Origin: Nitrospira sp.
GTDB taxonomy: Bacteria > Nitrospirota > Nitrospiria > Nitrospirales > Nitrospiraceae
Length of the DNA: 50,314 nt
Assembly: GCA_016873515.1 (NCBI GenBank)
Contig: VGXB01000012.1
Coordinates: forward strand, 1 to 50,314
Direction: 5' to 3'
Each line of letters begins with the position of its first letter. Position 1 is the stretch's first letter. The notes under the pieces are model-generated. The model was not told the DNA's origin and made no database searches. It worked only from the letters and a program-made list of their open reading frames with translations. Of the stretch, positions 43,163 to 46,884 are shown piece by piece. Made by a program: the position numbers and the translations under genes.

Positions 43163-43906
43163 ATGGACATCAGCCATTCGATCCGAGTCGTCTTTTTCGA
43201 CGCCGCCGATACCCTCTTTCACGTCAAGGGGTCGGTGGCCGAGATTTATCTCCGGTATGCCACGGAATTCGGCTTTGCGCAGACGCCGCAGTCTCTCTCC
43301 GCCATCAAATTGGCATTTGGCCGAGCGTTTCGTGATGCTCCGCCACCGATATTTGCTGCCACGGAATCGGCGCAGATCAAACACAGCGAGCGCCTCTGGT
43401 GGTTTGACATCGTGCACAACGTCTTTTATCGGGTCGGAATGTTCGAGCGGTTTGATGACTTTTTCGAGCGAGTCTTTCAGGTGTTCGAAGAGGCGGAGTC
43501 TTGGCAGCTCTTTCCAGAAACAGCGCAGACGTTGGCCGCTCTAAAGGCGCGCGGAGTAGAATTGGGCATCATCTCGAACTTCGACTCGCGGCTTTTCACG
43601 GTGATCCGGGGGTTAGGACTTGCAGAGACGTTTGACACAGTGACGATTTCCAGTCTGGCACAGGCCTCAAAACCAGCTCCCAGGATCTTTCAACTCGCGC
43701 TGGAGAAGCACGCGGTTGATCCGGAGGAAGCCCTGCACATCGGCGACAGTCTGCGGGACGATGTCGAGGGGGCCAGCAGGGCTGGGCTGCATGCCGTGCT
43801 ACTGGATCGTGGAGGGACCCAGCAAGGGGCTGATATCCGATCGATTCGAACATTGGACGACCTGCTTCCGCTCATCGATCAGCTGGAGCAGAGCGGGCGA
43901 GGGTAA
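43163..43906 (+). CDS. HAD-superfamily hydrolase
   Basis: A 247-residue HAD hydrolase of subfamily IA. Motif I is VVFFDAADTLF (nucleophile Asp), motif II ISNFDSR, motif III with Lys in QASKPAPRIFQ, and motif IV HIGDSLRDDVEGASRAG. The cap is helical. Such enzymes dephosphorylate small phosphorylated metabolites; the substrate is unknown. A terminator-like hairpin follows at 43926. Confidence 0.87.
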   Translation: MDISHSIRVVFFDAADTLFHVKGSVAEIYLRYATEFGFAQTPQSLSAIKLAFGRAFRDAPPPIFAATESAQIKHSERLWWFDIVHNVFYRVGMFERFDDFFERVFQVFEEAESWQLFPETAQTLAALKARGVELGIISNFDSRLFTVIRGLGLAETFDTVTISSLAQASKPAPRIFQLALEKHAVDPEEALHIGDSLRDDVEGASRAGLHAVLLDRGGTQQGADIRSIRTLDDLLPLIDQLEQSGRG

Positions 43907-43925: not shown

Positions 43926-43949
43926 CTCAGTCTTAACCTGAGCTTTTTT
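43926..43949 (+). terminator. Intrinsic terminator after the HAD gene
   Basis: CTCAG (43926-43930) and CTGAG (43938-43942) form a stem with a seven-base loop, followed by C and six T (43944-43949). It lies between converging genes. Confidence 0.55.
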
Positions 43950-44680
43950 CAAGAACCGATCAACAACGGCACTACATCTTTGGCTCGCCCTTGCAAGGAC
44001 ACATCGACAAGGCCGGTGTGTGGCGTGATATTGAGATTGATTTCCGCCACGAACGCGCCGGCTTCTTTCGCGATTGAGGCGAATCCTGCGGCTGGGTACA
44101 TGACACCGGATGTGCCGATGATCAAGCACAGGTCGCATGAGCGAAGGGCGCCATCGCATTGCCGAAGGTCTTCGTCAGCCAGCGATTCGCCGAACCAGAC
44201 AATGTGAGGCCGAAGGAGGCCATGACAGTGGTCGCACATTGGCAAGATCTGGATCGGCATATCATGGTTTTCGACCACTCGTCGGCAGTTGGTGCAGCGA
44301 ACCTTCCAGATGTTGCCGTGAATCTCGGACAGTTTGTGTGAGCCCGCCGTCCGATGCAGTCCATCCACATTTTGGGTAATCAACCAGAATTGGGAATACT
44401 GCCGTTCTAATTCAGCGACAGCCTCGTGGGCGGCATTGGGTTGTTTCGTGGCGATCAATTCGCGACGCCAGTTGTACCATTCCCAGACCAGTCGTGGGTT
44501 CCGTGCAAAAGCGTCAGGTGTTGCCAAGTCCTCTGCCTGAAAATTCCTCCACAATCCGTCGGTACCGCGAAACGTCGGCACACCGCTATCGGCGGAAATT
44601 CCGGCACCAGTGAGCACGACTACGTTTCGTGCCGTGGCGATCTTTTCTCTAACGAGTCCCAAATTGGAACCAGGTACCAT
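43949..44680 (-). CDS. cobB: NAD-dependent protein deacylase, SIR2/CobB family
   Basis: A 243-residue sirtuin. NAD-binding motifs VVLTGAGISADSGVPTFRG and LITQNVDGLHRTAGS are followed by the catalytic His in SEIHGNIWKVRC and four zinc cysteines (CTNC, CDHC). The pair Y-x2-R in WYNWRREL matches class III, SIRT5-like enzymes that favour succinyl or malonyl lysines. It removes acyl groups from lysines using NAD. It is divergent from the panE-fusion gene. Confidence 0.9.
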   Translation of the reverse strand: MVPGSNLGLVREKIATARNVVVLTGAGISADSGVPTFRGTDGLWRNFQAEDLATPDAFARNPRLVWEWYNWRRELIATKQPNAAHEAVAELERQYSQFWLITQNVDGLHRTAGSHKLSEIHGNIWKVRCTNCRRVVENHDMPIQILPMCDHCHGLLRPHIVWFGESLADEDLRQCDGALRSCDLCLIIGTSGVMYPAAGFASIAKEAGAFVAEINLNITPHTGLVDVSLQGRAKDVVPLLIGS

Positions 44681-44770: not shown

Positions 44771-46117
44771 ATGAAACAAATTTTGATGATCGGGGCCGGC
44801 TCGGTTGGCGGGTATTTTGGAGCACGCTTGGCCAAAACCAATCCCGATGTATCGTTTTTGCTGCGGCCCAATACGCTGATGGCGGTGAAACGACATGGAT
44901 TGACGATCCGCAGTGCCGACGGAACATTTACGGTGAGAGCTCAAGCTGCCTCAGATGCGCGGCAACTTCCCAGGCCTGACCTCATTGTACTCGGAGTAAA
45001 AGCATACGATCTCGACGAAGTGCTGTCTCAAATTGAATCGGTACTGACCGATACGACGGTTATCCTTACACTGCAGAATGGGATCGATACCGAAGACCGG
45101 CTTCATGCGCGCCTACAACGGAATTGTGTGGTCGGTGGCGTGGCCTACATCTACTCGAAAATTGTCGAGCCCGGCGTCATTGAGCATTATAAGAAAGGCG
45201 CAGTGGCCATCGGTGAACTGATGGGCCATGAGAGTACGCGGCTACTCGCTATCCGAGAGATATTCACGGCAGCTGGCATTCCGTGCCATCTCTCCAAAGA
45301 TATTCGCCGCACCAAGTGGGAAAAGATGTGTTGGAATTGCGTCTTTAACCCAATGACCGTCCTGATCGACGACCATGTAGCGAAAGCGTTGGATCATCCG
45401 GAGATGATGGGCGTGATCCGGCAAATCGTCGGAGAGGTGGCAGCGGTGTCAGCGGCGATGAAGGTGCCCTTACCGTTGGATATGCCCGATCGGGTCGTCA
45501 AAGCCACCCAGGAAATTCGTGATATTCATACGTCCATGTACGACGACTGGAAGGCAGGACGGAGGACAGAAATCGACTATCTAAACGGCTTTATTGTCAG
45601 GATGGGGCGTGAATTGGGCATTCCAACTCCCGTGAATGCGGCCTTGACGGCCATGATCAAGACGATGACTGAGAAGGAACAGACGAGTCCAGGCCGGGTC
45701 AGAATTGACGGTGCTGTTGTGCAGCCGATCTCTTTTGACCGCATGGCAATCGCGTCGTTGCCTGAAGAACACCAGCTTGATGTTTCTACGGTGATGCCGG
45801 GCATGCAGGGGCGAGGGATTCGGTTGAAGGGGTTGCTCGACGTTCCAGCCTTGGCCATTGACGCGGATCATGTCGCTGTTCATGCCGTCGATGGAAAGTA
45901 TTCGGCGTGTCTCACGTTGCAACAAGCCAGAGAGTACGGGGTCCTCGTCTATGAGCTTGATGGCACACCGCTGCCTGATTCAAAGGGCGGTCCGTTTCGT
46001 CTAGTCACTCCGGGACTGGGTGATCTCTGCGCCAACGTTAAAGGTGTGGGGCGTATTGAAGTCACCAAGGGACCAGGTCGGGACACTCGAGAGACAACGT
46101 GTCCACCAACGTCATAG
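44771..46117 (+). CDS. panE: Ketopantoate reductase (PanE/ApbA) fused to a sulfite-oxidase-fold domain
   Basis: Residues 1-305 are a full PanE: MIGAGSVGGYFGARLAK, the LQNGIDTEDRL segment, the catalytic Lys in RRTKWEKMCWNCVFNPM, and EIDYLNGFIVRMGRE. PanE reduces 2-dehydropantoate with NADPH. After about residue 310 comes a 120-residue domain: QPISFDRMAIASLPEE, PGMQGRGIRLKGLLDVP, VAVHAVDGKYSACLTL, VLVYELDGTPLPDSKGGPF and CANVKGVGRIEV. This pattern is that of the oxidoreductase molybdopterin-binding fold, but the molybdenum-ligand cysteine is not visible at its usual place. Normal PanE is about 300 residues, so the fusion is unusual. The role of the tail is unknown. Confidence 0.85.
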   Translation: MKQILMIGAGSVGGYFGARLAKTNPDVSFLLRPNTLMAVKRHGLTIRSADGTFTVRAQAASDARQLPRPDLIVLGVKAYDLDEVLSQIESVLTDTTVILTLQNGIDTEDRLHARLQRNCVVGGVAYIYSKIVEPGVIEHYKKGAVAIGELMGHESTRLLAIREIFTAAGIPCHLSKDIRRTKWEKMCWNCVFNPMTVLIDDHVAKALDHPEMMGVIRQIVGEVAAVSAAMKVPLPLDMPDRVVKATQEIRDIHTSMYDDWKAGRRTEIDYLNGFIVRMGRELGIPTPVNAALTAMIKTMTEKEQTSPGRVRIDGAVVQPISFDRMAIASLPEEHQLDVSTVMPGMQGRGIRLKGLLDVPALAIDADHVAVHAVDGKYSACLTLQQAREYGVLVYELDGTPLPDSKGGPFRLVTPGLGDLCANVKGVGRIEVTKGPGRDTRETTCPPTS

Positions 46118-46131
46118 TTTGACCGAGAACC

Positions 46132-46884
46132 ATGTATCGTGTTGTAGCCTTGGGTGCCAGCAATTTAACCCGTGGGTTCCAGGCTGTCGTCTCGACGGCT
46201 CGAACAATGTGGGGACCAGAGGTTGAAGTGTTGGCGGCACTGGGTCATGGGCGGTCCTATGGCGCTCCCAGCCGGTTCATCGCGCGTATGTTACCCGGCA
46301 TCCTGAAATCTGGGTTGTGGGCTGAATTGGAACGGCGATCTCCAATGACCACCAGGGGGCTGGTTACTGATGTTGGCAACGATATTCTGTATGGGTTCTC
46401 AGTCGAGCAAACTCTGGGATGGGTCGAAGAAGTGTTGGTTCGTCTCAGTCAGGTGACCGCCGATATCGTGATTACGGACCTTCCCCTTGCCAGCGTGCGT
46501 CGCATGTCGAATCTCAAATATCTGGCGTTTCGCTCGGTCCTGGTCCCGAACTGCCGGCTATCCTTACCTCAAGTACTCGATCGGGCTGAGCGTGTGAATG
46601 AAGGACTGGCGGTATTGGCCGAACGATACGGTGCCAAGTTATTTCGGCTAGACCCAACGTGGTACGGGTTCGACCCCATCCATGTCCGCCCGTCACTGTG
46701 GCGGACGGCTTGGCAGCAGATTCTTGGTAGTGAACCCCAGGGGAGGGCCGGTGGCAGAGTGACCATTGAAAGCATGAAACTCTACTTTCTGCGTCCCGAA
46801 CGGCGGTGGCTGTTTGGAGTCGAACAGGTGACGCCGCAATCTGGGGTTGCCCTCCGATCCGGCGGGCATGTGTGGTTGTACTAG
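46132..46884 (+). CDS. SGNH/GDSL-like hydrolase family protein
   Basis: A 250-residue protein with SGNH-type blocks: block I VVALGASNLTRGFQ (Ser in GASN), a DVGNDILYG stretch resembling block III, and block V DPIHVRPSLW with a D-x2-H pair. No signal peptide, so it is probably cytosolic. It might be an esterase or acyl-hydrolase. It starts 15 bases after the panE-fusion stop and may be cotranscribed. Confidence 0.7.
   Translation: MYRVVALGASNLTRGFQAVVSTARTMWGPEVEVLAALGHGRSYGAPSRFIARMLPGILKSGLWAELERRSPMTTRGLVTDVGNDILYGFSVEQTLGWVEEVLVRLSQVTADIVITDLPLASVRRMSNLKYLAFRSVLVPNCRLSLPQVLDRAERVNEGLAVLAERYGAKLFRLDPTWYGFDPIHVRPSLWRTAWQQILGSEPQGRAGGRVTIESMKLYFLRPERRWLFGVEQVTPQSGVALRSGGHVWLY

Follow-up and report, generated by a model that had tools for sequence, protein, structure and literature searches.

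PruR is a periplasmic protein of the SUOX fold that lacks the Mo-ligand cysteine and binds reduced pterins, including tetrahydromonapterin, without Mo; in Agrobacterium it controls DcpA, and it acts through DcpA/DTB regulators (PMC13259868). Structures are available for the proteins from Agrobacterium (Atu3496, 7KOS), Vibrio (7KOM, 7KP2) and Klebsiella (7RKB). The molybdoenzymes of the same fold (SoxC, SorA, SorT, sulfite oxidase and MsrP/YedY) are far longer, and the Arg of their HGxPxR motif and the Lys of [SN]VKW help to hold the pterin and the phosphate of the cofactor. Known PanE/ApbA proteins (TIGR00745; PDB 3hn2, 5ayv) stop at about 303 residues. The Nitrospira protein described here shares their fold, family score and active-site pattern over the whole of its first 303 residues, but it runs on into a second domain.

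The window analysed (the whole stretch of 50,314 nucleotides of contig VGXB01000012.1, from a Nitrospira sp. assembly of 1.98 Mb in 83 contigs) contains at 44771-46117 (+) a single open frame of 448 amino acids. The single frame, the profile matches and the fold search agree with the original prediction of a ketopantoate reductase that continues in frame into a SUOX-type domain. The parts of the gene are as follows:

44771-45682, + strand: PanE/ApbA domain, residues 1-304 (TIGR00745, PF02558, PF08546, 3hn2 match, active-site pattern)
45680-45691, + strand: flexible interdomain linker, residues 304-307 (pLDDT <50 at 304-306 in the full-length model)
45683-46114, + strand: minimal SUOX-fold tail without the Mo-ligand Cys (partial PF00174; tail-alone model and fold search)
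45890-45901, + strand: DGKY, residues 374-377 (profile alignment with 7kom; comparison of 36 tails; PMC13259868)
45986-46003, + strand: GGPFRL, residues 406-411, a retained piece of the SUOX cofactor-site motif (comparison of 36 tails; alignment with HGGPIRLV of 6y0k)
46019-46042, + strand: GDLCANVK loop, residues 417-424, with invariant C420 and K424 (comparison of 36 tails)

The full-length structure model has a mean pLDDT of 91.3, with the dip at the linker. Each domain is folded with confidence, but their mutual placement is uncertain (pTM 0.70), so that no claim can be made for contact between the tail and the active site of PanE.

By its sequence, the first half is a ketopantoate reductase, an enzyme on the route to vitamin B5, from which coenzyme A is made. 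Residues 4-301 match TIGR00745 (2-dehydropantoate 2-reductase) with 264 bits against a cut-off of 141, PF02558 (residues 4-150) and PF08546 (residues 177-299) are both above cut-off, and a fold search with the whole fusion gave 3hn2 with a Z of 38.7 (rmsd 1.7, 299 aligned). The active-site pattern is intact, with N103 (in QNG), K185, N189, N193, S255 and E267, the last five being invariant across 43 PanE halves. The catalytic residues of E. coli ketopantoate reductase are K176 and E256, which we take to have their counterparts in this PanE. NADPH dependence and ketopantoate reduction are predicted from the family. It is the sole clear PanE-type gene of this genome (131 bits, against 24 bits for the runner-up), and PanB is present. 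In the fusions of family f2 (L038, L039, L040), the PanE half contains some 40 inserted residues near query residues 150-157.

Since the PanE half filled the match list of the whole-fusion search, the tail was folded and searched separately. The tail-alone model had a pLDDT of 90.6 and a pTM of 0.85, and its top PDB matches were all of the SUOX fold, with Z from 17 to 10, against 6.0 for the next unrelated fold; among the Mo enzymes, 2xts matched with a Z of 17.4 (rmsd 2.9, 140 aligned) and 2blf with 16.4. Structure prediction and fold search thus agree on the SUOX fold proposed originally. The folded part comprises residues ~308-432, with a disordered C-terminus beyond. PF00174 matches residues 348-435 above cut-off (E 7e-13), covering only model positions 72-164 of 169. 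Since the match begins at position 72, the stretch with the Mo-ligand Cys is missing or unalignable. The tail has in common with the SUOX molybdoenzymes the fold and the second half of the cofactor domain, but it is much shorter and lacks both the segment of the Mo-ligand Cys and the dimerisation domain.

Absence of the Mo-ligand cysteine had been noted from this one sequence, and the classical segment is gone in all aligned tails; to this is added an invariant cysteine elsewhere, C420 (codon 46028-46030). It lies in a GDxC[AS]NVK loop and not at the classical Mo-ligand position. Eight residues are invariant in 36/36 tails: G406, G407, P408, R410, L411, P414, C420 and K424. The first five fall in the SUOX-type signature named in the original prediction (residues 391-411, VLVYELDGTPLPDSKGGPFRL). 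In the 6y0k alignment, R410 and K424 correspond to the Arg of HGxPxR and the Lys of [SN]VKW and, because both are retained, the pocket of the tail may fit a phosphorylated pterin better than that of PruR. Many tails have an additional Cys near the C-terminus. A haloarchaeal short cytosolic protein annotated as "molybdopterin-dependent oxidoreductase" (Halopiger WP_013875857, 167 aa) is 33% identical over 132 residues and has, like the tail, a Cys in the same loop ahead of [SN][IV]K. Unlike the tail, it also has a Cys near the classical place (DDFACIEGW) and is a stand-alone protein. For database entries of the tail's type, the same label is put in doubt, since the tail is without the usual Mo ligand and is similar to pterin sensors.

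By size and fold, PruR is the best precedent for the tail. Both consist of one minimal SUOX-fold domain, about 140 residues long, without the Mo-ligand Cys, and they match over almost their full lengths. The closest PruR match was 7kos_D (Z 14.2, rmsd 2.2, 120 of 146 residues), together with 7rkb (Z 13.7), 7kom (Z 12.9) and 7kp2 (Z 12.7), and the profile match with 7kom had an E of 8.8e-7. The equal or higher Z of the Mo enzymes counts against a pterin reading. In the 7kom alignment, N-D-Y-A-A falls onto D-G-K-Y/F-A/S-A of the tail, from which the PruR contacts Tyr104 and Asn102 would correspond to Y377 and D374, respectively. The first position is Tyr in 21 and Phe in 15 of the 36 tails, and the replacement of Asn102 by Asp also occurs in two PruR groups (PMC13259868). 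A further contact, the mostly conserved Trp160, has no counterpart, as the Nitrospira fusion tail has no Trp, and this also counts against a pterin reading. The tail differs from PruR in retaining Arg410 and Lys424 as well as the invariant Cys; it is cytosolic, C-terminal to PanE and without an N-terminal secretion signal, and no dcpA/DTB regulator lies next door. The suggestion that the domain may bind its cofactor differently has thus gained a concrete precedent in a Cys-less pterin binder, from which we infer the ligand of the tail. Short SUOX proteins of other Nitrospirota (L166-L168) were considered as PruR candidates and discarded, since their Cys is kept at the classical place.

Both halves were found in 80/80 of the GTDB loci kept, nearly all in one frame, which excludes chance and confirms the observation of a PanE-SUOX fusion as a whole. 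Carriers include N. moscoviensis and N. defluvii, both with complete genomes. The loci and these genomes together rule out an assembly error or a missed stop, and the two parts are not separate genes in all relatives, as an artefact would have implied. In a class-wide search at 1e-20, matches were obtained in 220/269 genomes; most of the matches listed for family f1, and many of those for the order's other families, were a single open frame extending from query residue 1 to residue 441-448. Between close species, dN/dS was 0.03-0.06 for PanE and 0.04-0.06 for the tail, indicating strong purifying selection on each half. Outside Nitrospirota, the search covered plasmid records, none of which matched over 80% of the query, and the fusion is undescribed in the open-access literature searched. 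At one locus of a Nitrospira RSF5 MAG (L076, 3001-4344), an in-frame stop falls exactly at the linker, at residue 303, which is either a rare natural split or a sequence error; the other four stops flagged are positioned at the natural C-terminus or close to it.

In the outgroup families f7 and f10 of the class, each genome gave two matches, one for PanE and one for the tail, which are separate genes there. In genome G205, the unfused tail and a panE-HAD pair lie on opposite strands, about 2.3 kb apart. Most likely, the fusion formed at the root of the order, by the joining of genes that were already neighbours. Outgroup and order tails split with full support in the tail tree, for which a midpoint root was used for drawing only.

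Un-fusing followed later, in both directions. In G040, the PanE gene (L033:3650-4609) ends with ...VKARTARMETTHGPGQDTKPAMNA, the tail having been excised in frame with retention of its terminal THGPGxDTxP motif (THGPGQDTKP). Conversely, G048 has the tail only (148 aa, beginning at the linker), while its congener G058, the sister of G048 on the tail tree (96/89), carries the fusion. G042 also has the tail only, and G368 and G369 of the same genus (g7), whose matches of 1e-41 to 1e-46 are weak like that of G042, are read in the same way. Each half can therefore stand alone, to judge from these sequences. No PanE was detected by PF08546 in G048, G042 and G203, and PanB was found in all three. PanB without a PanE-type protein was observed in these genomes and in G039 and G052, which would imply another ketopantoate reductase there. 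The G048 tail gene (L031:4447-5127) adjoins a putative cyclase (PF04199), at a site that is still flanked by Sir2.

The fusion has Sir2, HAD, SGNH-like and MATE genes as neighbours, two of which lie upstream in the window:

43949-44680, - strand: Sir2-type deacylase gene, divergent, 90 bp from the fusion start (tblastn match in 75/80 loci)
43163-43906, + strand: HAD-family hydrolase (PF00702)

The HAD gene is the one that adjoins the unfused panE in G205, and in family f2 it is directly upstream of the fusion. Downstream, the frame at 46132-46884 has SGNH-hydrolase-like motifs (GASN, GND, DPxH) and a homologue in 30/80 fusion loci; it gave no match in Pfam or NCBIfam. No riboswitch was found upstream of the fusion in Rfam, the one match being a tRNA elsewhere, and a consensus promoter scan between Sir2 and the fusion gave nothing above shuffles. 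Regarding the unfused tails, that of G203 has moaC and a moaD-moaE fusion gene nearby, and the others had no Moco gene neighbours in the stretches read. In f7, f8 and f10, they have long His/Asp-rich C-termini that are not present in fused tails; such runs end L136:230-811, L137, L138, L139 and L140 (e.g. HGHSHEGHSHDHGHDHD...). C-termini of this kind are typical of metal-binding tails, and their composition suggests metal binding. Together with the moa neighbours in G203, they allow a molybdopterin or metal role.

With the fusion, its fold, the loss of the Mo-ligand Cys, the conserved motifs, purifying selection and history established by sequence comparison, our preferred reading, with a probability of roughly 40%, is that the tail is a cytosolic PruR-like pterin-binding domain that tunes or localises a normal PanE activity. 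The pterin, either of the reduced folate type or phosphorylated (molybdopterin, for example), would occupy what is left of the SUOX cofactor pocket, and no Mo would be held there by the classical cysteine. Occupancy by the ligand, and perhaps the redox state of C420, would tune or place PanE activity, and coenzyme A synthesis would thereby be tied to the pterin/folate pool on which PanB depends. Since PanB, one step before PanE, consumes 5,10-methylene-tetrahydrofolate, such a link would be biochemically sensible. The invariance of R410 and K424, the Tyr or Phe in 36/36 tails and the moa neighbours of the G203 tail were counted for a pterin. The case of G040, where PanE does without the tail so that regulation by it is dispensable in that genome, counts against the preferred reading. 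Considered separately, a pterin as the ligand class has a little less than an even chance, and an effect of the tail on PanE is rather doubtful.

The tail could also handle molybdopterin or Moco, as a carrier, a store or a Mo site ligated by C420, in which case PanE would be a passenger, either unrelated or co-regulated. The invariant C420 in the loop bearing the VK cofactor motif, the retained R410 and K424, the highest fold Z being that of Mo enzymes, the G203 neighbours and the His-rich C-termini of unfused class-level copies, which could bind metal, are all in line with this role, the last two being its chief support. However, it remains unlikely, since the classical Cys segment is gone, the His of HGxPxR is changed to K/S/R/A/D/E, the Trp of VKW is replaced and the remaining unfused tails are away from Moco genes. 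A thiol/redox or metal-responsive regulator of PanE without a pterin ligand, sensing through C420, is less probable still; it would account for the invariance of C420 in fused and unfused tails alike and for the further C-terminal Cys, but a sensor Cys alone leaves the invariant GGPxRL, K424 and the DG(K)Y/F motif unexplained.

Equally hard to credit is a purely structural tail acting in stability or oligomerisation. The clean loss of the tail in G040 with PanE retained fits it, and the scaffold role considered in the original prediction has become less likely, since the tail survives alone in G042 and G048, genomes without PanE, and its conserved residues take in the cofactor-site motifs as well as the invariant Cys. 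Finally, the PanE half might be another 2-oxoacid reductase, working with the tail in a different pathway. D-mandelate dehydrogenase is among the top fold matches, and same-class genomes with PanB and no PanE indicate that the pathway can do without PanE in them. This is quite improbable given the TIGR00745 score far above cut-off, the intact catalytic pattern and a gene that is the only clear PanE of this genome, beside PanB in gene content.

Nitrospira, to which the comammox bacteria belong, are among the main nitrite oxidisers. The parts of the protein are known; new, as far as the open-access literature searched goes, are the way in which they are joined, the fixation of the fusion in the order and the attachment of a cytosolic SUOX domain without the Cys to a metabolic enzyme. 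Retention of the fusion across Nitrospirales means that the two activities belong together there, and the natural un-fusing in both directions provides ready controls. The stronger proposal that a pterin sensor built into the enzyme (for the folate pool or molybdopterin), a cytosolic and fused cousin of PruR, gates the synthesis of coenzyme A in Nitrospirales is improbable at present; if true, a pantothenate enzyme would be under a novel form of allosteric control, and a Cys-less SUOX pterin pocket would be in use outside the periplasmic PruR-DcpA/DTB systems.
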